DNA of 64,000 nt from Salaquimonas sp. (lineage in GTDB: Bacteria > Pseudomonadota > Alphaproteobacteria > Rhizobiales > Rhizobiaceae). The DNA lies in the NCBI GenBank assembly GCA_028289365.1, contig JANQQM010000002.1, positions 1-64,000 of the forward strand, in the 5' to 3' direction. Positions 20,490-47,800 of the stretch are shown one piece after another. The number at the start of each line of letters is the position of its first letter. Within the stretch, counting starts at the first letter, position 1. Position numbers and translations under genes: made by a program. The notes below the pieces were generated by a model that worked only from the letters and a program-made list of their open reading frames with translations, was not told where the DNA came from and ran no database searches.

Positions 20490-21980
20490 TTATCCTAGTA
20501 GAAAGCCCGCTGGGCCAGAGATTGAATGCGGTTCGGCGAATGCCAGGACACCATCATAGCCCAGATTACGCCCAATGCCGGACTGTTTGAACCCGCCAAA
20601 CGGCCCTCTGCCATCCTGCGCCATCGGGCCATGCCCATTGAGATAGGTGTAACCAGCCTCCAGGCGTTTCGCAACGCGAACGGCGCGCTCAGCATCGCTC
20701 GTCCATACCGAGCTGCAAAGGCCAAATTCGCTGTCATTGGCCGCGGCGACTGCCTCATCTTCGGTCTTGAACTTCATGATTGGCAGAGCCGGGCCGAATT
20801 GTTCATCCTTTACGATCGAAAGCGATGGATCTGCGTCATATACAAGCGCCGGTTTCTGGAAATATCCGCCACCTTTATAAAGCTCCTCATCCGGCGCACT
20901 GCCGCACTCCCGAACTTCTGCACCCTTGGCACGTGCTTCGTTGATCATGTCCACCACGATCTTGAACTGTCCGGCATTGTTGACCGGACCCATGGTCGTT
21001 TCGGGCAACAGGCCATCACCGATCACGGCGCGCTCACATGCGGCGGTAAATCCGTCAACAACTTCGTCATAACGCTTTTCATGGACATACATGCGCTTGA
21101 GCGCCATGCAGATCTGGCCAGTTGATGCAAAGGCAGCCCAATACATGCGTGTAAAAACTTCGTCGTTGAGTTCGGCGTCCTCAAGGATCAGCGCCGCATC
21201 ATTTCCGCCAAGTTCCAGGGTTACCGGGGTGATGTTTTCGGCAGCAGATTTCATGACCATGCGACCTACTCGGGCCGAGCCGGTAAAATTCACCCGGCGC
21301 ACAAGCGGATGACCGGTCAGCGGATCCCCTATTTCACGGCCATCGCCGGTCAGGACGTTGACGACCCCCGTCGGAAACAATGCCGCGATCTTAAGCAGGG
21401 TAAGCGCAGGTGCCAGCGCGGAATATTCGGATATCTTGACGACAACCGTATTACCCGTGACCAGTGCCTGGGGGAGTTTTGCTCCCAGGATCGACAAGGG
21501 CCAGTTCCAGGGCACGATCAGTGCGGCCACACCAGCCGGTTGGCGTGTAACAATCGTATCGAACGGCGGTCCCTTGATCTCCTCGTCAATTGCGACGCGG
21601 TCACCATAACCGGCTGCCTGGAGGAAGCGATCACCCAAACGAGTCATTTCCAACAGTGTTTCGCGCGCTATTTTACCGTGTTCCCTGGTGAACAGCCGTG
21701 AACGGTATTTGACGTCTTCCTCATCTTCGGTGAGCTTTGCAGCAACCTCGCGTAGTTTGTTTGCGCGCTCGCCATAAGACAGCTCCGACCATGCCGGAAA
21801 CGCTGCATGCGCGGCGCGAACCGCCTGATCAACATCCTTTTCGTTTGCCGCCGCGGCATGACCAACAATTTCCTTCGGCCGAGCCGGATTGTGAATGTCG
21901 TAGACGGCACCACCGGTCGCAGGACGACTTTCACCATTTATGAAAATTTCGGTCGTGATTACATTGTCCATATTACTCAT
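20490..21980 (-). CDS. NAD(P)+ aldehyde dehydrogenase
   Basis: 496 residues. Oxidises an aldehyde to the carboxylate in the cytoplasm. The active-site block FASTGQICMALKRMYV holds the catalytic Cys and VTLELGGNDAALILEDA the general-base Glu; the cofactor-fold signature IVPWNWPLSILGAKLPQAL and the end motif GFKQSGIGRNLGYDGV are also present. ATG 21980 is supported by GAGGAAAC about 8 nt upstream; the frame is open to 22037. It is divergent from the sulfatase operon across a 414-bp region. The substrate is probably an aldehyde produced by that regulon, which is an inference from position. Confidence 0.9.
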   Translation of the reverse strand: MSNMDNVITTEIFINGESRPATGGAVYDIHNPARPKEIVGHAAAANEKDVDQAVRAAHAAFPAWSELSYGERANKLREVAAKLTEDEEDVKYRSRLFTREHGKIARETLLEMTRLGDRFLQAAGYGDRVAIDEEIKGPPFDTIVTRQPAGVAALIVPWNWPLSILGAKLPQALVTGNTVVVKISEYSALAPALTLLKIAALFPTGVVNVLTGDGREIGDPLTGHPLVRRVNFTGSARVGRMVMKSAAENITPVTLELGGNDAALILEDAELNDEVFTRMYWAAFASTGQICMALKRMYVHEKRYDEVVDGFTAACERAVIGDGLLPETTMGPVNNAGQFKIVVDMINEARAKGAEVRECGSAPDEELYKGGGYFQKPALVYDADPSLSIVKDEQFGPALPIMKFKTEDEAVAAANDSEFGLCSSVWTSDAERAVRVAKRLEAGYTYLNGHGPMAQDGRGPFGGFKQSGIGRNLGYDGVLAFAEPHSISGPAGFLLG

Positions 21981-22394
21981 CGTTGTTTCCTCAAAACTGA
22001 TGAATGCTCGACAGGATTTGGCTCGACATTCCTCCATCCAATGTCAGATTGGCGCCGCGAAACCACTTGGATCTATCACCCGGAACATAAGAACGTCCGA
22101 CAATCTGGCACTGACACACCGCATATTGTTGCCCGGGCCGCGCCAGGTCCAGCGATTTTGAGTTGTTCCGGAAATTATTGCCTTTTTGATCAGGAAGTAG
22201 TTGCGGACTTCAAGGCACGAAAGGGTTGGCGCCAGTTCCGTAGGTAACGCCGGATCTCCGGCACAAAAAATTCATCCGGGCAATTACATTGTTTCTACAG
22301 ATGATTCTTACCGCTTGCATGAAGTGAAAAATTGAGATTTAATCTAAGATATCAGTTTATATATTAAACGATAATTTTCGATAAAGGTGGTCGT
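21981..22394. other. Divergent regulatory region, aldehyde dehydrogenase/sulfatase
   Basis: A 414-bp non-coding stretch. It holds an AT-rich promoter for the sulfatase operon with the operator-like palindrome at 22340-22355, and a small GCCGG/CCGGC hairpin (22249-22262) followed by A-rich sequence. No credible ORF on either strand. Confidence 0.6.
22340..22355 (+). promoter_or_regulatory. Operator-like palindrome upstream of the sulfatase operon
   Basis: TAATCTAAGATATCAG contains the palindrome ATCT-A-AGAT (22342-22350). It lies between a possible -35 (TTGAGA, 22332) and an AT-rich -10 region, ending 39 nt before the ATG at 22395. An almost identical element sits at the same distance before tctB (26920-26935). 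The GntR regulator encoded between the two operons is the likely binder. Confidence 0.6.
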
Positions 22395-23900
22395 ATGTCT
22401 TCAAAACCGGATCAGCCCAACATCCTTTTAATCATGGCTGATCAGCTAACGAGCCACGTGCTTTCCATGTACAATCCAAAGGGTCAGGCGATCACACCGC
22501 ACCTTGACGCATTGGCCGAAGACGGCGTGGTCTTTGAAAACGCCCATTGCAATTCTCCATTATGCACGCCGTCCCGGGCCTGCATGTTCACCGGCGCAAG
22601 AACCTCCACTACCGAGATATGGGGCAACGGCTCCATCTTCCCGCCGGATCTGCCAACCATGATGCATTTCCTGCGCAGTGCCGGATATCGCAATGTGGTT
22701 TCCGGCAAGACCCATTTCATCGGTCCGGATCAGCTTCACGGGTTTGACAAGCGCCTGACCACCGACATGTATCCGTCCCGCTTCGACTGGACGATCGACT
22801 GGACGCGCGGCGTCGAGCACAAGCTCGGAACTTCCGTAAAGAAACTGGAGATTTCCGGTTTGTGCCGGACTAACAACCAGATTCTGTTCGACACGGAGGT
22901 GCAGTTCCGGGCGATCGAGTTCCTCAGATATGAAGCATTAAATCAGGATCCTGCTCCTTTCTTCCTGCACGTCTCGTTTACCCAACCACATGAGGCCTAT
23001 CAGTCGATTCCCAAATATTGGGACCTCTATGAAGACATCGAGATCGACATGCCGGAACAGGCGGAGGACGCGGAAGAGGACGCCCACATCACCACAAAGT
23101 GGCTGAAGCATCATCATGGCATTGATGCCCATCCACCCTCACCCGAAATCATCCGCGACTCGCGGCGGGCCTATTACGCGATGATCACGCATCTCGACGA
23201 GTATGTCGGCGAACTGGTTGCCGAGCTGAAACTGCTCGGCCTTTACGAAAATACCATCCTGATTTTCTGCTCTGACCATGGCGACATGATTGGCGAGCGC
23301 AATATGTGGTTCAAGCGCACCTTCTATGACATGTCGGTTAAGGTGCCGCTGATCTTTCATTGCCCGAAGCACTTCGAACCGCGGCGCGTGTCAGAGATTG
23401 TGTCACTGGCCGATCTTTGTCCGACGTTGGCGGAACTTGGCGGTGGCAAGGAGTATTCCGATGCCTATGGCAGCAAGGACAGCGCCAGTTTTGCTGGGCT
23501 GTTTAAAGGCGATGCCGATGGCTGGCGTGATTACGCGATCAGCGAGTATTTCGGCGGTGGTTTGATCGAACCCTGGCTTATGCTGCGTCAGGGCAGATAC
23601 AAATATGTCTATACCCGCAACCATGAACCGGTGCTGTTCGACATGGTGGAAGACCCCTACGAGGTCAACAACATCGTTGACGATCCGGTACATGCGCAAC
23701 GCATCGCGGAAATGCATGATCTGCTGTTTGATGGCCTTGATCTCGATGCCAAGACCGAAAAGGCAATCGCAAGCAAGGTCACCCGGACCTATCTGCACCA
23801 GACCATGAAATCCAGCGACGGTTATCGTTGGGATTACCAGCCGAATTTTGATGCCACCAAAATTTATGTACGCGAAGCGAACGATCCGGTGACCTGCTGA
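22395..23900 (+). CDS. Cytoplasmic sulfatase, choline-sulfatase-like
   Basis: 501 residues. The alkaline phosphatase-superfamily sulfatase fold starts at NILLIMADQLTS. The formylglycine motif is C57-T-P-S-R61 in NSPLCTPSRACMFTG. Metal and active-site blocks include SGKTHFIGPDQLHGF, SFTQPHEAYQS and FCSDHGDMIGERNMWFKRTFYD. The end WDYQPNFD resembles BetC-type choline-sulfatases, but the sequence differs clearly from the second sulfatase at 44485. There is no signal peptide, so it works in the cytoplasm on an imported sulfate ester. It is followed after 35 bp by tctC. ATG 22395 has AAGGTGG upstream. Substrate unknown. Confidence 0.87.
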   Translation: MSSKPDQPNILLIMADQLTSHVLSMYNPKGQAITPHLDALAEDGVVFENAHCNSPLCTPSRACMFTGARTSTTEIWGNGSIFPPDLPTMMHFLRSAGYRNVVSGKTHFIGPDQLHGFDKRLTTDMYPSRFDWTIDWTRGVEHKLGTSVKKLEISGLCRTNNQILFDTEVQFRAIEFLRYEALNQDPAPFFLHVSFTQPHEAYQSIPKYWDLYEDIEIDMPEQAEDAEEDAHITTKWLKHHHGIDAHPPSPEIIRDSRRAYYAMITHLDEYVGELVAELKLLGLYENTILIFCSDHGDMIGERNMWFKRTFYDMSVKVPLIFHCPKHFEPRRVSEIVSLADLCPTLAELGGGKEYSDAYGSKDSASFAGLFKGDADGWRDYAISEYFGGGLIEPWLMLRQGRYKYVYTRNHEPVLFDMVEDPYEVNNIVDDPVHAQRIAEMHDLLFDGLDLDAKTEKAIASKVTRTYLHQTMKSSDGYRWDYQPNFDATKIYVREANDPVTC

Positions 23901-23935
23901 AGCAGGCTGCCAGATTTAAATCCAAGGAGGAACTG

Positions 23936-24880
23936 ATGAAATTTACCGTAGGGCTTACTGCGTTAGCTGCCGGTTTGGCGATGTCGACAATTACGGCGCT
24001 TGCAGAATATCCGGAAAAGAACCTGACAATGATCGTGCCATTTAGCGCAGGCGGCGGCACGGACACAGTCGCCCGAATTGCTGTGCCTGGCATGGAAAAA
24101 CAGCTGGGTACAACGATCGTCGTCAAGAATGTTGCAGGCGCAGGCGGGACCATTGGCGCCTCCGAGTTGGCAGCAACGACACCGGATGGATATACCATCG
24201 GTTTCATGCCGGTCGGTACCATGACCACCCAACCGCATTTGCGGAAAGTGCCCTATAATGCCGATAGCTGGGAGCCGATCTGCCGTCTCGTCAAGGATCC
24301 GATGTCGGTACTGGTTGCGCCTGATTCCAAAATCAAATCGATGGAAGATCTTGTCGCGATGGCAACAAATGGCAATCAGTTGAAATCGGGCGGCCCGCCG
24401 CCGGGATCCCTGCCCCATATCGGGCAAGCTGCCATGGCGAATGCTTACGGATTGGATCTGAAATATGTCCCGCATGAAGGCGGCGGCGCGGTTGCCAAAT
24501 CCCTGCTTGGCGGACAGATCGATGTCTTCACGGATCTTGCCGGCAATGCCGAAAAATTCGGCCTTGTGAATATCGCGCTGTTAGGTACTGAGCGGCATCC
24601 GCAATTTCCCGACCTACCAACGACCAAGGAGTTGGGCGGACCGGAATTGGACTATTCCATCTGGTTCGGCATGTTCGCTCCCGCTGGCACGCCCGACGAT
24701 ATTATGGCGAAGCTTTCTAAGGCCTGCGGGGACATGGCCGCGACGCCGGAATATCTGAAAGCTATGGAGGATGCCAAGCGTTCCGTGGCCTATATGGGCA
24801 CCGATGAGTTCGAGGAATTTTTCGTCGCTCAATTCAATACAAACGGGTCGCTTCTAGAAGCGATCGGCATGAAGAAGTAA
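23936..24880 (+). CDS. TctC-family periplasmic binding protein (first copy)
   Basis: 314 residues with a signal peptide (GLTALAAGLAMSTITALA). The mature protein has the TctC/Bug pattern EYPEKNLTMIVPFSAGGGTDTVARI and NVAGAGGTIGASELA. Bug proteins bind carboxylates or other small anions for the TctAB permease. Unlike the second copy at 28973 it is co-transcribed with the sulfatase rather than with tctBA. The two copies share long identical blocks, such as SGGPPPGSLPHIGQAA. The ATG follows AAGGAGG. Both may feed the single TctAB pair, or this one may sense ligand. Confidence 0.9.
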   Translation: MKFTVGLTALAAGLAMSTITALAEYPEKNLTMIVPFSAGGGTDTVARIAVPGMEKQLGTTIVVKNVAGAGGTIGASELAATTPDGYTIGFMPVGTMTTQPHLRKVPYNADSWEPICRLVKDPMSVLVAPDSKIKSMEDLVAMATNGNQLKSGGPPPGSLPHIGQAAMANAYGLDLKYVPHEGGGAVAKSLLGGQIDVFTDLAGNAEKFGLVNIALLGTERHPQFPDLPTTKELGGPELDYSIWFGMFAPAGTPDDIMAKLSKACGDMAATPEYLKAMEDAKRSVAYMGTDEFEEFFVAQFNTNGSLLEAIGMKK

Positions 24881-24891
24881 AATCCTCCCTC

Positions 24892-24927
24892 GGGGCAGCT
24901 GCCGCACATTGCCAAGTTAGCTGCCCC
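24892..24927 (+). terminator. Intercistronic hairpin after tctC
   Basis: GGGGCAGCT (24892-24900) pairs with AGCTGCCCC (24919-24927) over an 18-nt loop, followed by CTTTTCTCGTTTTT. It sits between tctC and the lactonase gene on the same strand, so it is probably a leaky terminator or a 3'-end stabiliser that lets the binding protein be made in excess. Confidence 0.65.
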
Positions 24928-24960
24928 CTTTTCTCGTTTTTCGCTCAGGAAGGTTCGGGA

Positions 24961-25989
24961 TTGTCTGACGGCCTGCAAAGCATGGTTTACGTATCCTGTA
25001 ATGAAGGTAAGGCGATTGATGTCTTTTCCGGATTTGCAGATGGTACGATCGAAAAAATCCAGGCGATCCCGCTGAGCGGGCGCGGTTTGCCGATCGCAGT
25101 TTCACCCGACCGGCGCAAGCTTTATGCCTCGGTGATTGGTGAAAAGGACGGCGAGGAAGAAGACCATATTGACGCCTTCACGATTGATCCAGCTTCCGGC
25201 AAACTTGCCCACCTCTCGACTACAATCATTGATGTTCGAATGGCGCATATATCGGTCGACCGAACCGGACAGTTCCTGCTTGGCGCCTCGTTTCCGTCCC
25301 ACAAGGTTGCTGTCTATCCTATCGGCCCGCGCGGCCAGGTGCAGGAGAAGCCAACCTGTTGGCGTGATTCTCCTCTCAATGCGCATCAGATCCTGATCGA
25401 TCCGAGCAATCGGTTCTGTTTCGTTTCCTGTTTGGGTGGTCACCAGGTCATGCAATTGGTGTTTGATCAGAACACGGGAAAATTCACCGATAACAATCCG
25501 GCGACAATCCAGCTGCAGACGGGTGCTGGATGCAGACAGGTGGCGTTCCATCCGGACCGTCGATTTGTCTACTTGCTGAATGAGCGCGACGGAACCATGG
25601 TGGAATATGCGCTTGATCAGGATAGAGGAACGCTTTCAGAAATCGGGCGAGATAGCTACATCAAGCCAGATTTGCAGGGGGAGCCCTGGGGGGCGCAGAT
25701 TCATGTCTGTCCGCTCGGAAGGCGCCTGTTTGCCTCGGATCGTCGTGGCAAGACATTGGCTTGCTGGCGCTTGAATGCAGATGACGGGAAAATGGCAAAT
25801 CGGCAGATTGTCGATTGTGGTGGTAACCCGAGGGGCTTTGACATCACACCAAAGGGTGATTTCCTGATACTTGGTGCGATGGATGAAGACATGCTGGAAA
25901 TCTTCGACATCAGCGAAATGGACGAGGCACCAAGATTGGTTTCGCGTGTACCCACATCTTCTCAGCCCGGCTGGGTTGAAATCGTTTAG
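24961..25989 (+). CDS. Lactonase-family seven-bladed beta-propeller
   Basis: 342 residues, cytoplasmic (no signal peptide), of the 6-phosphogluconolactonase/YbhE-like propeller family. Repeated blades read MVYVSCNEGKAIDVF, IAVSPDRRKLYASVIGEKDG, ISVDRTGQFLLGASFPSHKV, ILIDPSNRFCFVSCLGGHQV, VAFHPDRRFVYLLNERDGTMVEY and the end FDITPKGDFLILGAMDEDMLEIF. Relatives hydrolyse sugar lactones, which suggests the desulfated compound or a product passes through a lactone. TTG 24961 is favoured by AGGAAGG 6 nt before it; ATG 24982 is possible. The stop overlaps the convergent GntR stop by 4 bp. Confidence 0.82.
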   Translation: MSDGLQSMVYVSCNEGKAIDVFSGFADGTIEKIQAIPLSGRGLPIAVSPDRRKLYASVIGEKDGEEEDHIDAFTIDPASGKLAHLSTTIIDVRMAHISVDRTGQFLLGASFPSHKVAVYPIGPRGQVQEKPTCWRDSPLNAHQILIDPSNRFCFVSCLGGHQVMQLVFDQNTGKFTDNNPATIQLQTGAGCRQVAFHPDRRFVYLLNERDGTMVEYALDQDRGTLSEIGRDSYIKPDLQGEPWGAQIHVCPLGRRLFASDRRGKTLACWRLNADDGKMANRQIVDCGGNPRGFDITPKGDFLILGAMDEDMLEIFDISEMDEAPRLVSRVPTSSQPGWVEIV

Positions 25990-26675
25990 GTATAGATTGG
26001 AATGCCGCGGTTGAACGTGCCGTCCAGGTGATCAAGCATTGCCTGTTGTGCCTTCGGCCCGTCTTTTTCCTCAAGTGCCTCGATGATCTTCAGATGTTCA
26101 TTGATTGCCGGCAGTTCGAAGAATTTCTCATTGGCGACGATATTCAACCGAAAGATACGTACATGCTCGGTTGCAAGTTTCTGTGCGGTAACCAAAATCG
26201 GGTTGCCATAAAATTCAATAACCATGTCGTGCAACAACATGTCCACACGGTTTCGCTCTCTAAACAAGGTGTCATCGGGGCGCTCGACCGCCTGGAAGCT
26301 CTCTATGAAGGAGAGCGTTTCGGACTTGATTGTCTCGACCATTTCAGCCGGCGCATTCTCGGCGAAATGGGCGACTGCCGGTCCCTCGATGATCTTTCTG
26401 GCATCGATCGCCTGTTTGAAGGCAAGCCGGTCAATTTGAATTACGCGAATTCCTCGCTTTGGCAGCAGGGTGACAATCCCCTCGGATTCCAACGCCTTCA
26501 GGGATTCCCGTACCGGTCCGAGCGGAACCTCCAGCAGGTCGCATATTTCCCGTTGAGAAAGAAAGTCGCCGGGTTTGATCCTGCCGGCAAACAACGCTTC
26601 CTTGAACCGGCGATGTGCCACCCTGCGCAGACTATCCGGCTGATCTTTGGATTTGGATTTTTCTATCAGACCCAT
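25986..26675 (-). CDS. GntR/FadR-family (FCD) transcriptional regulator
   Basis: 229 residues: winged helix at about 12-80 (RRFKEALFAGRIKPGDFLSQREICDLLEVPLGPVRESLKALESEGIVTLLPKRGIRVI) followed by an all-helical FCD ligand domain to the C-terminus. Such proteins usually repress catabolic operons and release DNA on binding a small acid, with a metal in the FCD domain. It lies between the sulfatase operon and the tctBA operon. Both carry the same palindrome, which it probably recognises. ATG 26675 is preceded by GAAGGAAAC. Confidence 0.88.
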   Translation of the reverse strand: MGLIEKSKSKDQPDSLRRVAHRRFKEALFAGRIKPGDFLSQREICDLLEVPLGPVRESLKALESEGIVTLLPKRGIRVIQIDRLAFKQAIDARKIIEGPAVAHFAENAPAEMVETIKSETLSFIESFQAVERPDDTLFRERNRVDMLLHDMVIEFYGNPILVTAQKLATEHVRIFRLNIVANEKFFELPAINEHLKIIEALEEKDGPKAQQAMLDHLDGTFNRGIPIYT

Positions 26676-26803
26676 GGCATGTTTCCTTCACCTGCACGGT
26701 TTTAGCGCACTTGGAGCATGAATGAAATGCTGACGCGATATCGCAAGCTGCAACAGCAGACCAGTCTTAATACAGCAATAGTCCACAGATAGAATTATCG
26801 ATT

Positions 26804-26834
26804 TAGTCGAGACAATGGAGACAAATCTCGACTA
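26804..26834 (+). promoter_or_regulatory. Perfect 9-bp inverted repeat in the GntR/tctB intergenic region
   Basis: TAGTCGAGA at 26804-26812 and TCTCGACTA at 26826-26834, separated by 13 nt. No T-run follows, so it is not a terminator. It lies about 130 bp before the GntR start and 140 bp before tctB. It could be a second operator or an RNA hairpin in the GntR leader. Confidence 0.45.
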
Positions 26835-26919
26835 GCATTCCATCGGGTGGAAATTGATCTACAACGACGAATGTGGATGGTCGATCAATTTCCTTTGACG
26901 GCGTGATGATACTCGGATA

Positions 26920-26935
26920 TCATCTGAGATACTAG
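26920..26935 (+). promoter_or_regulatory. Operator-like palindrome upstream of tctB
   Basis: TCATCTGAGATACTAG contains ATCT-G-AGAT (26922-26930) and ends 39 nt before the tctB ATG. It matches the element before the sulfatase in sequence and in distance, which suggests coordinate control of both transcription units by one regulator. Confidence 0.6.
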
Positions 26936-26974
26936 CTTAAATTTCTTATATCTTGCAAGTGACGAGAAGTCTGA

Positions 26975-27430
26975 ATGCAGCAGAAAAACGCGGATATGCT
27001 CTATGGGGCGGTTTTGGCAGGAATGGCGTGTGCGATGTTCGCGCATACATTTTCTCCGATCTACCAAAATGAATTTCTTTTCGGTGACGTTTCCACCGTA
27101 TTTTTCCCGCGTGTCCTGCTCGGCATTATTTTCGTGCTTTCCATGATGCTGGTCGTGAAAGGAAAGCTCAGCACCAGCGATGCCATCCTGACCCAGATTA
27201 ATGTGAAGCGCGTACTGCTGACCGGCGGCGCGACACTGATCACGGTAGTCGGCGTCTGGTATCTCGGCTACCTGGTAATGATGCCAGTAGGTGTGTTTCT
27301 GATCGGCCTGGCGCTGGGTTATCCAAATCTGGTGATCCTCGGCATAACAAGCCTGATCTCTCCCCTTGTCGTCTGGGTGATTCTCGCCAAGTTCGCCCAG
27401 GTTTCCTTCGCTCCCGGCACTTTGCTCTAG
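26975..27430 (+). CDS. TctB-family small permease subunit of a TTT transporter
   Basis: 151 residues with four hydrophobic helices (MLYGAVLAGMACAMFAHTF, FPRVLLGIIFVLSMMLVV, LLTGGATLITVVGVWYLGYLVMMPVGVFLIGLALGY, SLISPLVVWVILAKFAQVSF). TctB is the poorly conserved small membrane subunit of tripartite tricarboxylate transporters. The gene is followed after 8 bp by tctA, with an ideal AGGAGG between. Confidence 0.85.
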   Translation: MQQKNADMLYGAVLAGMACAMFAHTFSPIYQNEFLFGDVSTVFFPRVLLGIIFVLSMMLVVKGKLSTSDAILTQINVKRVLLTGGATLITVVGVWYLGYLVMMPVGVFLIGLALGYPNLVILGITSLISPLVVWVILAKFAQVSFAPGTLL

Positions 27431-27438
27431 GAGGGAAC

Positions 27439-28950
27439 ATGATTGAATTCATTCCCTCTGCCTTCGCTGCCACGTTTTCAGTCTCAGTTCTGCTGGCGCT
27501 GGCTGCGGGAACATTTGCAGGCATCATTATCGGCGCCCTGCCCGGACTTGGCACCGTCCTGGGATTGGTGATGGCACTGCCGTTTACCTATGTAATGGAT
27601 CCGGCAACCGCGATCGCACTGCTTCTATCCATTTATGTCAGCTCGATTTACGGCGGTTCGATCTCCGCGATCCTGATCAATGTACCGGGAACACCGCAAT
27701 CTGCTGCCTCGGTATTTGACGGCTACCCGATGGCGCAGCGCGGCGATGGGGCGCTGGCACTTGGTTATGCAACCGTCGGCTCTTTCATTGGGGGAATTTT
27801 CTCGCTGATTGTCCTGGTGTTGATTGCACCGCAACTGGCAAAATTTGCGCTACAGTTCGGGCCAATTGAAACCTTCGCATTGATCGTGTTCGCACTGACT
27901 ACGATTGCCTGGGTATCGAGCGGCGAAATGCTCAAGGGCCTTCTGTCCGCAACGATCGGTCTATTCCTCGCATTGATCGGTCCTGACGCCATGACCGGGC
28001 AAATCCGGTTCAATTTCGACAGCCTGTTCCTGTCGGCCGGGCTGACGGTCATCCCGTTGTTGATCGGATTTTTTGCGGTCTCGGAAATCCTGTATCAGGC
28101 CGCAGTCCTGAAAGATGTCAAACTACCAGCAGTTACCTCAGGCGGTTTCAAGCTTGCGCCATGGTCGGAATGGAAACCACGCATCATGGTAATCTTGCGC
28201 AGTTGCGGGATTGGCAGTTTCATTGGTGTCCTGCCCGGCACGGGCGCGACGGCGGCGGTGTTTGTCAGCTATGCAGATGCAAAGCGCCGCTCACCAAACC
28301 CGGAAGATTTCGGAAAGGGCGAACCAAGCGGGCTTCTGGCTTCGGAAGCTTCGAACAATGCCGTCAGTGGCGGCGCGATGGTGCCGATGATGGCGCTCGG
28401 TATTCCCGGTGATGGTGGCACCGTAGTGCTAATGGGTGCGTTGACGATCCACAATGTCATCCCCGGCGTCAGGCTGTTTTCCCAGCAGCCGGACCTGGTC
28501 ACGCTGATCTTCGTGCTGCTGTTTCTTTCCAACATTCTGATGCTGTTCATCGGCGGCTTTGGCGCGAACTTATTTTCACGCATGCTCAGAATTCCAACGA
28601 CGCTATTGATGCCGTTGGTCTTCATGATGTCGGTCGTTGGCGCCTATGCAATACGGTCCAATCCGGTCGACCTTTTTGTGGTCGTCATCTTTGGCGTCGT
28701 CGGGTTCCTGTTGCGGCTAAACCGGTTTCCGCCTGCACCGATCATAATCGGATTTGTATTAGGTGCACCGCTAGAGATGTCACTCCGGCAGGGATTGATC
28801 CTTACCGACATGAACTTCCTGGCCTTCTTTGCCAGCCCGATCGCGTTGATCCTGTTTTGCATCACCGGATTGATCATCCTCAATCTGTTTGGGCTCGGAA
28901 ATGCGATCAGCAAGCGGTTCAGAAGGAAAGAGACTCAATCAAACAACTGA
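27439..28950 (+). CDS. TctA-family large permease subunit of a TTT transporter
   Basis: 503 residues, about 11-12 membrane helices. Family signatures are AGTFAGIIIGALPGLGTVLGLVMALPFTYVMDPATAIALLLSIYVSSIYGGSISAILINVPGTPQSAASVFDGYPMAQRGDGALALG and the repeated half SFIGVLPGTGATAAVFVSYADAKR...ASNNAVSGGAMVPMMALGIPGDGGTVVLMGAL. The conserved glycine/proline-rich PGLG and PGTGA loops form the substrate site. Works with TctB and a TctC protein as a secondary importer driven by ion gradients. A single tctA serves two tctC genes in this locus. Confidence 0.93.
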   Translation: MIEFIPSAFAATFSVSVLLALAAGTFAGIIIGALPGLGTVLGLVMALPFTYVMDPATAIALLLSIYVSSIYGGSISAILINVPGTPQSAASVFDGYPMAQRGDGALALGYATVGSFIGGIFSLIVLVLIAPQLAKFALQFGPIETFALIVFALTTIAWVSSGEMLKGLLSATIGLFLALIGPDAMTGQIRFNFDSLFLSAGLTVIPLLIGFFAVSEILYQAAVLKDVKLPAVTSGGFKLAPWSEWKPRIMVILRSCGIGSFIGVLPGTGATAAVFVSYADAKRRSPNPEDFGKGEPSGLLASEASNNAVSGGAMVPMMALGIPGDGGTVVLMGALTIHNVIPGVRLFSQQPDLVTLIFVLLFLSNILMLFIGGFGANLFSRMLRIPTTLLMPLVFMMSVVGAYAIRSNPVDLFVVVIFGVVGFLLRLNRFPPAPIIIGFVLGAPLEMSLRQGLILTDMNFLAFFASPIALILFCITGLIILNLFGLGNAISKRFRRKETQSNN

Positions 28951-28972
28951 GAACATCGAAAGGGAGGATAAT

Positions 28973-29905
28973 ATGAAATATCTATTGCCAGGCTGTGCAG
29001 CCATCATCCTTGCAGCCGGATCTGCATTTGCCGAATATCCGGAAAAATCGATCAGCGTGCTGGTCCCCTTCAATGCCGGTAGCGGACCGGATTCCAGTTT
29101 CCGAATGCTGCAGCCGGAAATGGAGAAACTGCTCGGTCAGCCCATGGTCGTACTGAATGTCGGGGGAGCTGGCGGCACTGTCGGCGCATCTCAATTCGCT
29201 GCTGAACCGAAGGAAGGCTATAATCTGGCCTTCATGCCGGTCGGAACCACGACAACCCAGCCGCATCTTCGCAAGGTGTCCTATGACGATACGTCGTTTG
29301 AGCCGATCTGCATGACCATCCAGGATCCGATGGGGGTCAGTGTGTCGCCGGATGCGGGCATCGACACGATTGACGCGCTGGTTGATAAGGCAAAAGCCGG
29401 AACCGTTACTTCCGGCGGTCCTCCGCCCGGGTCCCTGCCCCATATTGGTCAGGCAGCCGTTGCCGCAGCTTATGACATTGAATTCAAATATGTCCCGCAT
29501 GAAGGAGGTGGTGCTGCGGCAAAATCCATCCTTGGCGGCCAGGTTGATGTTCTGGTCGATCCGGTTGGCTCAATCCTCAATTACGGTCTCAAGCCGTTGG
29601 TTGTCCTGAACGGAGAGCGGCTCCCGGCTGCGCCTGACGTTCCAACCATCGACGAGGTGGGCGGCAAACCACTGCGTTATTCAATCTGGTTCGGGTTGTT
29701 TGCACCGGCAGGAACGCCTGAGGACGTGCTGAACAAGCTCGATGAAGCCTGCAAGACGGCGACATCGACCGAAAGCTACAAGGCAACGGTTGAAAAATCC
29801 GGCAGAACGCCGCGTTTTATGGATCGCGCCGAGTTTTCCGAGTTTTTCAAACAGCAATACAAGGATAATGCATCCCTGTTGACCGCTGTCGGCCTGAAAA
29901 AGTAA
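28973..29905 (+). CDS. TctC-family periplasmic binding protein (second copy)
   Basis: 310 residues with a signal peptide (LLPGCAAIILAAGSAFA). It is clearly paralogous to the copy at 23936: both start EYPEK and share PVGT-TTQPHLRKV, SGGPPPGSLPHIGQAA, KYVPHEGGGA and YSIWFG-FAPAGTP. They differ around the predicted pocket (VPFSAGGGTDTVARI there, VPFNAGSGPDSSFRM here), which suggests different ligands. ATG 28973 follows AGGGAGG; an earlier in-frame reading from 28889 overlaps tctA and is rejected. Confidence 0.92.
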   Translation: MKYLLPGCAAIILAAGSAFAEYPEKSISVLVPFNAGSGPDSSFRMLQPEMEKLLGQPMVVLNVGGAGGTVGASQFAAEPKEGYNLAFMPVGTTTTQPHLRKVSYDDTSFEPICMTIQDPMGVSVSPDAGIDTIDALVDKAKAGTVTSGGPPPGSLPHIGQAAVAAAYDIEFKYVPHEGGGAAAKSILGGQVDVLVDPVGSILNYGLKPLVVLNGERLPAAPDVPTIDEVGGKPLRYSIWFGLFAPAGTPEDVLNKLDEACKTATSTESYKATVEKSGRTPRFMDRAEFSEFFKQQYKDNASLLTAVGLKK

Positions 29906-29912
29906 CGTGCCG

Positions 29913-29938
29913 GGGCGCGGTGGTTCCTCGCCGCGCCC
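29913..29938 (+). other. Intercistronic hairpin after the second tctC
   Basis: GGGCGCGG (29913-29920) pairs with CCGCGCCC (29931-29938) around a 10-nt loop, without a T-run. It lies between tctC and the dehydrogenase gene and matches the placement of the hairpin after the first tctC, so it probably protects the 3' end of the abundant binding protein message. Confidence 0.55.
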
Positions 29939-29958
29939 AATTCCGGAACAGATCAAAA

Positions 29959-30918
29959 ATGGCAAAACCTGGCCTTTACCTGATTGGCAAATCGGCCGAA
30001 AAATACTGTAGAAACCTCTCCGAAGCCTTTGATATTCATATCCAAAGCAAGATTTCCGACGTCGACGGGTTTCTTCGCAAAAATGGTTCTGAAATCATGG
30101 CGATTGGCACCAATGGCCATGATGGTGTGCCTGCCAATCTGTATGAGCGCTGTCCGAACCTGAAAATCATCTCCTGTTACGGCGCCGGTTACGATGGAAT
30201 TGACGCCAAGACAGCCCATGAACACGGGGTGGTCGTTACCCACACGCCGGATGTGCTGAACGATGAAGTAGCCAATACCACACTCATGCTGTTATTGGCG
30301 GCCTCTCGCGATCTGATCAACAATCATGCCCATGTTCGCGACGGTTCATGGGAAACCAAGGGCCATCCGGGGCTGACAGTTTCGATCGCGGGCAAGACGG
30401 TGGGAATTGTCGGGCTGGGACGAATTGGACTGGCAATTGCAGCCAAGCTGCAAGCGTTTGATGTCGACATCGTCTATCACAGCCGCAATGCGCGGGATGA
30501 CGTGGATTTTGATTACTATGATGATCTCGTCAGGATGGCTGAAGACTGCTGGGCGCTGATCATTGCAACGCCAGGCGGACCTTCTACAAACAAGCTGGTG
30601 GATGAGCCTGTAATGCAAGCGCTCGGTTCCGAGGGCATATTGATAAATGTCGCGCGTGGTTCAGTCGTGGATGAAGAAGCGCTCATTCGCCTCCTCTCGG
30701 AGGGAAGACTCGGGAAAGCAGGGCTTGATGTCTTTGCAAATGAACCAACTGTACCAAAGGCCCTGCGAGAGATGAATAATGTCGTGCTCACCCCTCACAT
30801 TGGCAGCGCCACGGTTGAAACCCGCGATGCCATGGGTAAGCTGATGGTCGATAATCTGACGCAGTTTCTGGAAACGGGCGACGCCGTATCACCGGTGCCG
30901 GAGTGTAGAAACGAGTAG
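29959..30918 (+). CDS. D-2-hydroxyacid dehydrogenase (hydroxypyruvate/glyoxylate reductase type)
   Basis: 319 residues, cytoplasmic, NAD(P)H-dependent. The Rossmann motif GLGRIG is at 152-157. The catalytic triad of the family is complete: Arg233 in VARGSVVDEEAL, Glu262 in DVFANEP and His280 in LTPHIGSAT. It reduces 2-keto acids such as glyoxylate or hydroxypyruvate, or oxidises the 2-hydroxyacid. As the last gene of the tctBAC operon it probably acts on an imported or derived hydroxyacid. ATG 29959 has only a weak GGAA site upstream. Confidence 0.9.
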   Translation: MAKPGLYLIGKSAEKYCRNLSEAFDIHIQSKISDVDGFLRKNGSEIMAIGTNGHDGVPANLYERCPNLKIISCYGAGYDGIDAKTAHEHGVVVTHTPDVLNDEVANTTLMLLLAASRDLINNHAHVRDGSWETKGHPGLTVSIAGKTVGIVGLGRIGLAIAAKLQAFDVDIVYHSRNARDDVDFDYYDDLVRMAEDCWALIIATPGGPSTNKLVDEPVMQALGSEGILINVARGSVVDEEALIRLLSEGRLGKAGLDVFANEPTVPKALREMNNVVLTPHIGSATVETRDAMGKLMVDNLTQFLETGDAVSPVPECRNE

Positions 30919-44484: not shown

Positions 44485-45993
44485 TCAATCCCCTCGGGGA
44501 AAGCGCTGCCTGTCCTCAACGACATTCAGGTCCATGTGATTGCGCATGTAGCGTTCGGATGCTTTTTGCAGCGGCTGGTAGTCCCACGGATAGTAGGCAC
44601 CATTGCGCAAGGCTTCATAGACCACCCAGCGCCGCGCCTGGCTGTCGCGGACCTCAGCATCGAATTTCTCCAGATCCCAGCGAGCATCCGCTTGGTTTCG
44701 TAGCTCAGTCAGACTCTCTACATGCGCCGGATCCTCGGCGAGATTGACAAGTTCATGCGGGTCGGCATCAAGGTCGAATAATTGCTCCGGGTCCAGTGCG
44801 CAGCGGTTGTATTTGTATTTTCCGCTTCGAATAGAAACCAGCGGCGCATTGGAGGCTTCGGCGGCATATTCCATGAGAACCGGATTGTGTCTTTCAGCCC
44901 CTTGCACCGTTGCCACAAGACTTTCGCCATCGGTCCATGGCGATACTTCCTCAAGATTTATTCCCGCCAATTCACAAAGCGTGGGCGCTACATCCATGGT
45001 TGAAACCGGAACGTCGATTTTCCCTTCCGGCAGTTCGGGTGAAGCAATCATCAATGGCACGCGCGAGGAGCCTTCGTAAAAGCACATCTTGAACCACAGA
45101 CCGCGTTCGCCCAGCATGTCGCCATGGTCCGAGACAAACAGGATCGTCGCTTCCTGCCCGGTATCGTCCAGGGTTTCGAGGATCTGGCCGATCTTGTCAT
45201 CCAGATAGGAGATGTTGGCAAAATAGGCCCGGCGTGACCGGCGAATGTCATCTTCGCTGATGTCAAAATTCCGCCAGTCATTTGCATCGAAAATCCGCCG
45301 CGAATGGGGATCGTGATCTTCATAGGCCATTGCAGGCACGACAGGCAAAAGATGCTCGCAGTCCGAATAAAGATCCCAGTATTTCTTCCTCGCCAGATAG
45401 GGATCATGCGGATGGGTGAAGCTGACTGTCAGGCACCAGGGCCGCTCATCCTGGCCGCGTGCGAGGTCGTAAATCTTGCGAACGGCGTTGTAGCCAACCT
45501 CATCATCATATTCCATCTGATTGGAGATCTCGGCAATGCCCGCGCCAGTGACCGAACCCATATTGTGATACCACCAGTCAATTCTTTCGCCGGGTTTGCG
45601 ATAGTCCGGTGTCCAGCCGAAATCGGCCGGGTAAATGTCGGTCGTCAGCCGTTCCTCAAAGCCATGCAGTTGATCTGGCCCGACAAAGTGCATCTTGCCG
45701 CAAAGGCTGGTCTGGTAACCTGCACGGCGCAGATGATGGGCGAAAGTGGGCGTATCGGAAGGAAATTCGGCGGCGTTATCATAGACCCCGGTACGGGAAG
45801 GTAATCTGCCCGACATGAAGGAAGCCCTGCCGGGCGCGCATAATGGCGAAGCAGTATAGGTGTTTGCAAATCTGACCGAGCGCTTGGCCAGTCGCGACAG
45901 ATTGGGAACATGGAGCCAATCGGCTGGACCATCTGGAAACAGGGTGCCATTCAGCTGGTCCACCATGAGTATCAAAATGTTTGGATGTTTCAC
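44485..45993 (-). CDS. betC: Choline-sulfatase
   Basis: 502 residues, cytoplasmic, converts choline-O-sulfate to choline and sulfate. The formylglycine motif is C52-A-P-G-R56 in ASPLCAPGRASFMSG. Other BetC landmarks: CGKMHFVGPDQLHGFEERLTTDIYP, VSDHGDMLGERGLWFKMCFYEGSSRVP and the C-terminal choline-sulfatase extension RRWVVYEALRNGAYYPWDYQPLQKASERYMRNHMDLN. The start is GTG 45993 with GGGAAG 7 nt upstream. It converges on the carnitine regulator with 30 bp between and is divergent from a binding-protein gene. The product choline would join carnitine in glycine betaine metabolism. Confidence 0.88.
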   Translation of the reverse strand: MKHPNILILMVDQLNGTLFPDGPADWLHVPNLSRLAKRSVRFANTYTASPLCAPGRASFMSGRLPSRTGVYDNAAEFPSDTPTFAHHLRRAGYQTSLCGKMHFVGPDQLHGFEERLTTDIYPADFGWTPDYRKPGERIDWWYHNMGSVTGAGIAEISNQMEYDDEVGYNAVRKIYDLARGQDERPWCLTVSFTHPHDPYLARKKYWDLYSDCEHLLPVVPAMAYEDHDPHSRRIFDANDWRNFDISEDDIRRSRRAYFANISYLDDKIGQILETLDDTGQEATILFVSDHGDMLGERGLWFKMCFYEGSSRVPLMIASPELPEGKIDVPVSTMDVAPTLCELAGINLEEVSPWTDGESLVATVQGAERHNPVLMEYAAEASNAPLVSIRSGKYKYNRCALDPEQLFDLDADPHELVNLAEDPAHVESLTELRNQADARWDLEKFDAEVRDSQARRWVVYEALRNGAYYPWDYQPLQKASERYMRNHMDLNVVEDRQRFPRGD

Positions 45994-46146: not shown

Positions 46147-46225
46147 AAAAAACACACATATTTTCCGGAAGCTGGCAATAGTCGACAAATTGAGCATACT
46201 AAGAAAAACAACAGGGAGAACATTA

Positions 46226-47800
46226 ATGAACAATAATAAAATCTGGATGGGTAGACGCGGCATTACCAGGCGTGGTGTGCTGGGAGGTGCAGCCGTCCTC
46301 GGTGCAACAACGCTTGCAGCGCCGCTCACTGCAAACCTGGCGAAGGCGCAACCCAAGAAAGGTGGCTTGATCCGTGTCGCAAAAGGCCATGGCCAGACGG
46401 CCGATACGCTCGATCCGGCAACCTTCGTCAACGGATTTAATGTCGCATTTTCCTATGGCTTGCACGGATTTCTTACAGTAGTTGGCACCGATGGAAGCCT
46501 TGAGCCTTCTTTGGCTGAAAGCTGGGAAGCATCACCAGATGCGAAGATCTGGAGCTTCAAACTCCGTCCTGGCGTGACCTTCCACAAGGGCAAAGCGCTT
46601 GCACCTGAAGATGTTGTCGCCTCGATCAATCACCACAGAGGTGACGATTCAACATCTGCAGCGAAACCTCTGGTTGCCGGGATTACGAATATCACCACAG
46701 AGGGCAACGATACTGTCGTATTTGAACTCGAAAGTGGAAATGCCGACTTCCCGTTTGTGTTCACTGATTATCATCTGGCAATCCTTCCGGCCAAGGACGG
46801 AAAAATGGATTGGCAGAGCGGTGACGGTTGTGGCGCCTATGAGCTTGTGCAATTTGACCCGGGTGTCGTTGCTCAATTCAAGCGGTATGGCGGTGACTGG
46901 AACCAGGATCGCGGATATTTTGACGAAGTCGAAATGCTGTCGGTTCTTGATCTGAACGCGCGAACTGCGGCGCTCGTTTCCGGCGAAGTTCATTCAATTG
47001 ACAAGCTGGACCTGAAGACTATCGGTCTTTTGGGCAGGCGTCCCGGCATTGAAATCAATTCCGTGGCAGGTCCGCAATATTACACGTTCGCGGCCCATAC
47101 CGATTCCGCGCCCTATGACGATCTCAATGTTCGCATGGCCCTGAAGCACGCGATCAATCGTGAGGAAATGATCGAGAAGATCCTGTTCGGCCACGGCACC
47201 ATCGGCAACGACCATCCGATTGGTCCGAGCTATCGCTATCACAATCCCGACCTGCCGCAGACGCCATACGATCCCGACAAGGCAAAGTTCCATTTGAAGG
47301 AAGCCGGTCTGGACAGTTTGAAAGTGACCCTTTCTGCAGCTGATGCCGCCTTCCCGGGTGCTGTCGACGCTGCCGTGCTCTACCAGGCCTCTTCAAAACC
47401 AGCCGGTATTGAGCTCGAGGTCAACAAGGTCCCCAATGATGGCTATTGGGCGGACGTTTGGCTCAAGCATCCGTTCTGCGCGGTTTATTGGGGCGGACGG
47501 CCTACCGAAGACCAGATATTCTCGACCGCTTACGCCGATGGCGCCTCCTGGAACGAGACGAACTGGTCAAATCCGCAGTTCAATGAGCTGCTTGTTGCGG
47601 CACGTGCCGAACTGGATGAGGACAAGCGCCGGGCGATGTATTTCGACATGCAGGAACTGGTTGCCACAGATGGCGGTTCGGTCTTGCCGATGTTCGCTAA
47701 CTTTGTCTTCGCAAATAGCGACAAGGTCGCCCATGGCGACATGGCTTCCAACTTTGATGTGGATGGCGAGCGCTGGATGGAGCGCTGGTGGTTCAAATAA
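46226..47800 (+). CDS. Tat-exported peptide/nickel-type ABC substrate-binding protein (orphan)
   Basis: 524 residues. A twin-arginine signal (GRRGITRRGVLGGAAVLGATTLAAP) is followed by the SBP_bac_5 fold: LDPATFVNGFNVAFSYGLHGFLTVVGTDGSLEPSLAESWEASPDAKIWSFKLRPGVTFHKGKALAPEDVVASINHH. Binding proteins of this family take up oligopeptides, but also opines, glutathione and quaternary amines. No permease or ATPase genes adjoin it; a strong terminator follows directly, so it is transcribed alone. It is divergent from betC, which suggests a link with osmolyte uptake. The start ATG 46226 follows AGGGAG. Confidence 0.9.
   Translation: MNNNKIWMGRRGITRRGVLGGAAVLGATTLAAPLTANLAKAQPKKGGLIRVAKGHGQTADTLDPATFVNGFNVAFSYGLHGFLTVVGTDGSLEPSLAESWEASPDAKIWSFKLRPGVTFHKGKALAPEDVVASINHHRGDDSTSAAKPLVAGITNITTEGNDTVVFELESGNADFPFVFTDYHLAILPAKDGKMDWQSGDGCGAYELVQFDPGVVAQFKRYGGDWNQDRGYFDEVEMLSVLDLNARTAALVSGEVHSIDKLDLKTIGLLGRRPGIEINSVAGPQYYTFAAHTDSAPYDDLNVRMALKHAINREEMIEKILFGHGTIGNDHPIGPSYRYHNPDLPQTPYDPDKAKFHLKEAGLDSLKVTLSAADAAFPGAVDAAVLYQASSKPAGIELEVNKVPNDGYWADVWLKHPFCAVYWGGRPTEDQIFSTAYADGASWNETNWSNPQFNELLVAARAELDEDKRRAMYFDMQELVATDGGSVLPMFANFVFANSDKVAHGDMASNFDVDGERWMERWWFK

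Follow-up and report, generated by a model that had tools for sequence, protein, structure and literature searches.

The genes at positions 22395 to 30918 of the 64-kb stretch of DNA analyzed here (the window) form what we take, with a probability of about 0.6, to be a catabolic regulon for the import and desulfation of a small anionic sulfate ester. It is made up of two plus-strand operons (22395-25989 and 26975-30918) with a minus-strand gntR gene in between. The first operon holds, in this order, a sulfatase, tctC1 and a lactonase, and the second tctB, tctA, tctC2 and a D-2-hydroxyacid dehydrogenase. A check of open reading frames and profiles found every gene intact and confirmed the names given in a preliminary description of this DNA.

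Operon 1 opens with a formylglycine-type sulfatase (CTPSR), which we call SulfA (22395-23900, plus strand); it falls into the choline-sulfatase family (TIGR03417, 472 bits, cutoff of 433) but has lost the choline-binding parts. After a gap of 35 nt follows tctC1 (23936-24880, plus strand), encoding a TTT-family periplasmic solute-binding protein (PF03401, 178.7 bits) whose closest solved chains are BugD and BugE, and then a seven-bladed beta-propeller lactonase similar to 6-phosphogluconolactonase (24961-25989, plus strand; PF10282, 176.7 bits), which scores 186 bits on NF008258, below the cutoff of 370. The gntR gene (25986-26675, minus strand) encodes a GntR-family regulator with an FCD domain (PF00392 and PF07729). 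In operon 2, the small and large membrane subunits, tctB (26975-27430, plus strand) and tctA (27439-28950, plus strand; PF01970, 479 bits), precede tctC2 (28973-29905, plus strand), a paralog of tctC1 with 53% identity to it. The TTT set is complete: TctA and TctC score above their cutoffs, and TctB, at 28 bits slightly below the cutoff of 29.1 for PF07331, is placed as expected and matched by a gene of a related cluster. The last gene (29959-30918, plus strand; PF02826 and PF00389) encodes a D-isomer-specific 2-hydroxyacid dehydrogenase resembling glyoxylate/hydroxypyruvate reductases (closest solved relatives, 5v72/5j23). Both this enzyme and the lactonase belong to broad families and score under the cutoff of every specific model. 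Divergent from the sulfatase lies an aldehyde dehydrogenase gene (20490-22037, minus strand; PF00171, 436 bits), below every NCBIfam equivalog cutoff, whose product is a possible candidate for a downstream enzyme of the regulon.

A related cluster and the substrate class

The nearest ortholog of the transporter and regulator set is found in genome G118, which belongs to another family and is, among 357 genomes of the order, the only other one carrying such a GntR regulator. Identities amount to 86% for tctA, 81% for tctC2, 77% for tctC1, 64% for tctB, and 58% for both GntR and the lactonase. The sulfatase is absent from this cluster, and the TTT ligand thus need not be sulfated. The cluster also encodes an enolase-superfamily protein (below the cutoff of any specific model), two D-2-hydroxyacid dehydrogenases, an RraA-like (aldolase-like) protein, an aldehyde dehydrogenase and an SDR, suggesting sugar-acid catabolism. 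Given these partners, and given that two other sulfatase-TTT clusters have a D-2-hydroxyacid dehydrogenase gene after tctA and one includes a lactonase gene, our best guess for the substrate of the window's system is a sugar acid carrying a sulfate, or the corresponding lactone, a class within which no compound can be named. The sugar-acid-like substrate proposed in the preliminary description thus gains support from the G118 partner genes. D-Lactate-2-sulfate, attractive given the dehydrogenase, was set aside, as the sequence offers no evidence for it.

Two known systems are comparable, the sulfolactate TTT SlcHFG of Roseovarius and Chromohalobacter and the galactarate/glucarate TTT of Halomonas (both in PMC5812351). 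SlcHFG resembles the window's system in that a TTT imports a carboxylate with an additional oxidized sulfur group, but its ligand is a sulfonate, whereas the one proposed here is a sulfate ester; the Halomonas TTT is paired with sugar-acid catabolism, as the TTT of the G118 cluster, which encodes an enolase-superfamily protein, appears to be. The SlcHFG system has a dehydrogenase partner, as does the window's system. To our knowledge, no sulfatase or lactonase belongs to SlcHFG, and no sulfatase has been described for the galactarate/glucarate TTT.

These precedents, together with the retention of TTT, lactonase, GntR and operator in G118 where the sulfatase is missing, would fit a transporter that imports an unsulfated carboxylate (a sugar acid or, by analogy with SlcHFG, sulfolactate), with a sulfatase that is co-regulated and acts elsewhere. 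We consider this unlikely, though it deserves to be kept in mind: sulfatase and tctC1 share one operon, the four SulfA orthologs described below adjoin another TTT, and sulfatases adjoin related tctC genes in many genomes.

SulfA, a diverged relative of choline sulfatases

SulfA keeps all 12 catalytic positions that were examined against the Sinorhizobium choline sulfatase (SmCS), namely, D14, Q15, C54, P56, R58, N75, K102, H104, H201, D296, H297 and K309 in SmCS numbering. Its fold and active site are common to PMH and PehA-type enzymes, so that it might hydrolyze a phosphodiester or phosphonate monoester borne by an acid. This PMH-like activity, although shared within the superfamily, appears improbable to us, the choline-sulfatase score being far above that for the PehA family (472 versus 129 bits); the FGE genes and additional sulfatases found near the orthologous clusters are compatible with either activity.

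The best solved relatives of SulfA are choline sulfatases, and SulfA shares with BetC/SmCS (TIGR03417; PDB 6fny, 6g60 and 7pth) the fold family, the C-x-P-S-R motif, the catalytic residues, the lack of a signal peptide and a score above the family cutoff. It differs from them in the parts that recognize choline and in its TTT neighbors. Choline sulfatases bind choline with a GW-X13-WYHN hairpin or clamp (PMC9063841), of which W142, W143 and Y144 are deleted in SulfA; neither His145 nor Asn146 is conserved in the SulfA clade, although the alignment of these two residues, beside the gap, is uncertain. Glu386 is fully conserved among choline sulfatases, and its exchange for leucine costs SmCS ∼1,000-fold on choline sulfate (PMC5870055); the corresponding residue is Gly388 in SulfA and proline in four orthologs. 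In addition, the C-terminal tail is short, and all five members of the SulfA clade, but no other sequences in the alignment, have a pair of lysines beside the lost clamp that would fit a negatively charged substrate. In the tree, these five sequences form a clade of their own on a long stem (support, 100/100).

The same window contains a normal betC gene 20 kb away (44485-45993, minus strand), which scores 890 bits on TIGR03417 and retains the clamp hairpin. Since the clamp and Glu386 are absent from SulfA even though it passes the cutoff, and since a normal betC is close by, SulfA is very probably not a choline sulfatase. An ordinary choline-O-sulfate pathway, with SulfA acting as TIGR03417 names it, has the profile score and the solved relatives in its favor and still seems very unlikely given these losses, the separate long-branch clade, the intact betC and the fact that known TTT ligands are nearly all anions (PMC5812351). 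Of the earlier view of this sulfatase, the lack of a signal peptide held, but the enzyme is not anonymous: by profile and residues, it is a diverged choline-sulfatase paralog. The genome has four FGE genes, which could mature SulfA; one of them lies on the regulon's own contig, ∼38 kb downstream and just outside the window (L123 5164-6132; contig C229, ∼69.2 to 70.1 kb).

Two further observations concern this family. The canonical betC is located near genes for a beta-keto acid cleavage enzyme, a 3-hydroxyacyl-CoA dehydrogenase/thioesterase fusion and a family-5 solute-binding protein (46190-47800). Another branch of choline-sulfatase relatives, comprising L047 (7708-9219, contig C43 of the same genome), L011, L013, L014, L017 and L018, lacks the WWYHN clamp and retains an acidic residue at position 386; its members are possibly further misnamed enzymes.

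Linkage of TTT transporters and sulfatases

Four SulfA orthologs (60 to 66% identity) were found, on the metagenome-assembled contigs L039 and L040 and in genomes G233 and G269, and all four are encoded in clusters with the order GntR/FCD-tctC-tctB-tctA-pdxA-sulfA. Additional sulfatases adjoin three of these clusters, and an FGE gene adjoins two. They resemble the window in that an orthologous sulfatase stands beside TTT genes and a GntR/FCD gene, but neither the TTT (∼42% identity for TctA and 27% for TctC) nor the GntR is orthologous to that of the window, and a PdxA-like dehydrogenase is present where the lactonase is absent. SulfA is therefore tied to TTT transport via two different transporters, which is stronger evidence than a single conserved cluster would be. 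Conservation of the complete gene set, a check suggested in the preliminary description, was not observed: none of the other genomes searched has the exact set, the four orthologs coming with another TTT, a PdxA-like protein and no lactonase, and G118 coming without the sulfatase. No close relatives of SulfA at an E value of ≤1e-130 appeared in 783 further genome draws at the class and phylum levels, nor on plasmids, where the best match among 72,556 had 40.6% identity.

The PdxA-like dehydrogenases of these clusters (L039, L040, L044 and L045) keep the metal histidines, but where the D-threonate-4-phosphate enzyme has PGHTE, they read EGYKA. PGHTE binds phosphate. The substrate of the PdxA-like proteins beside sulfA is thus likely different and probably not the usual 4-phosphate. 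The idea of a PdxA that acts on sulfate instead of phosphate was set aside on these grounds.

Beyond the SulfA orthologs, the association extends through the window's own genome, which encodes 31 sulfatases, 28 TctA, 24 TctC and four FGE proteins in 4.75 Mb. Nine of the 28 tctA genes have a sulfatase within 5 kb, with 1.8 expected (P ∼ 3.5e-4, with clusters kept as blocks, under a null that treats the draft genome as a single 4.75-Mb line). Relatives of TctC1 in other genomes, collected irrespective of sulfatases, have a sulfatase within 2.1 kb in 10 of 14 places. They form one clade (support, 95/84), most members of which carry a TTQPH stretch, and 13 of its 18 members are sulfatase linked, counting the window's tctC2 with its sulfatase 5.1 kb away; several members share a genus, so independent linkage events are fewer than these counts. 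The proposed link of the sulfatase with TTT transport is thus upheld well past the locus. That a genome rich in both gene types (31 sulfatases and 28 tctA genes in 4.75 Mb) merely places unrelated pathways side by side is hardly credible, as the co-location is about five times the random expectation, recurs in other genomes and comes with a shared operator.

About 30 TTT-linked sulfatases have no hydrophobic N terminus, and three non-linked ones do, according to a simple hydropathy test rather than a signal-peptide predictor, so that the TTT-linked enzymes look cytoplasmic. TTT systems, sulfatases and GntR regulons are each of already known kinds. The open literature that we searched, with subscription papers outside its scope, contained no description of TTT-sulfatase systems. 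It is about an even call for us whether TTT transporters and cytoplasmic formylglycine sulfatases together constitute a recurrent kind of system, not described so far, that imports sulfated sugar or hydroxy acids and then desulfates them, with SulfA representing a new sulfatase activity in which the cation pocket of choline sulfatase has become an anion pocket.

Two clusters of the same genome are particularly dense. On contig C86 (L078, 62-11687), the end of a tctA is followed by a sulfatase, an FGE gene, a sulfatase, tctC, tctB, tctA, a D-2-hydroxyacid dehydrogenase and an RpiR regulator, and a further tctA there is 73% identical to that of the window. On contig C63 (L101, 1230-12541), one tctA-tctC pair stands amid three sulfatases, along with two enolase-superfamily-like genes.

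Candidate operator and proposed regulon

The palindrome ATCTNAGATA occurs exactly twice in the 64-kb window (22342-22351 and 26922-26931), once ahead of each operon and each time ending 43 nt upstream of the ATG; 0.18 copies are expected, and two were reached in 2 of 100 shuffles. The 39-nt spacing to the ATG reported earlier is recovered when the palindrome is extended to ATCTNAGATANNAG. Putative operator 1 (22338-22355, plus strand) consists of a −10-like TTTAAT (22338-22343) overlapped by ATCTAAGATATCAG (22342-22355), and the second putative promoter and operator (26895-26935, plus strand) consist of a −35 element, TTGACG (26895-26900), a −10 element, TATCAT (26918-26923), and ATCTGAGATACTAG (26922-26935). 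Both palindromes begin on the final two bases of the −10-like hexamer, hence in the same register, and both hexamers follow a possible −35 element by 17 nt (TTGCAT at promoter 1 and TTGACG at promoter 2). The TTGCAT (22315-22320), spotted by eye only, is weak. In a scan for consensus promoters, only promoter 2 passes, and because the total of 6 sites is no higher than the 6.6 found in shuffles, we treat the promoter assignments as putative.

The G118 GntR ortholog has a nearly identical N-terminal DNA-binding region. The G118 tctB promoter (L071 10463-10588) has the sequence TTGACA-18-TACCATCTAAGATACCAG, in which the palindrome sits, as in the window, on the final two bases of the −10-like hexamer. 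The G118 tctC1 promoter has a weak match only, so that support for the operator outside the window comes from one promoter of one relative. The common register at both promoters and its preservation in front of the G118 tctB favor the earlier suggestion of one regulon with a shared operator. As the candidate site covers −10/+1, repression is suggested, and the GntR/FCD protein is probably the repressor of both operons. Across the whole genome, the 14-mer occurs five times and its control not at all; the three additional copies, two of which precede a Nudix/NrtR-like gene and a flavin-reductase gene and the third of which lies on contig C165, gave no sign of membership in the regulon and were left uncounted. 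ATCTNAGATA is absent from the two SulfA-PdxA clusters searched (L039 and L044). In another of these clusters, repeated GTATACC palindromes precede tctC (L040 5858-5887), possibly an operator for that cluster's own GntR.

Building on the genes, the shared operator register (conserved at one promoter in one relative), the catalytic residues, the loss of the choline determinants, the missing signal peptide and the recurrent TTT-sulfatase linkage, all read from the sequence, we infer a substrate class, an order of steps, and GntR as the binder with its direction and effector. In the periplasm, the ester, which is small, anionic and most likely a sulfated sugar acid or the lactone of one, would be bound by TctC1, TctC2 or both, and TctAB would then move it inside. 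There, the cytoplasmic formylglycine sulfatase SulfA would take off the sulfate, the propeller lactonase would open the lactone form, and the D-2-hydroxyacid dehydrogenase would oxidize the liberated hydroxy acid. The FCD-GntR protein would repress both operons from ATCTNAGATA over −10/+1 and let go upon binding an acid of the pathway.

Organic sulfur commonly occurs as sulfate esters, and the ligands covered by a review of TTT systems do not include sulfate-ester acids (PMC5812351). Because a protein devoid of the choline-binding residues passes the curated choline-sulfatase model, automatic annotation would probably misname SulfA. The linkage of TTT genes and sulfatases offers a straightforward way to find import systems of this kind, along with a ready test set.
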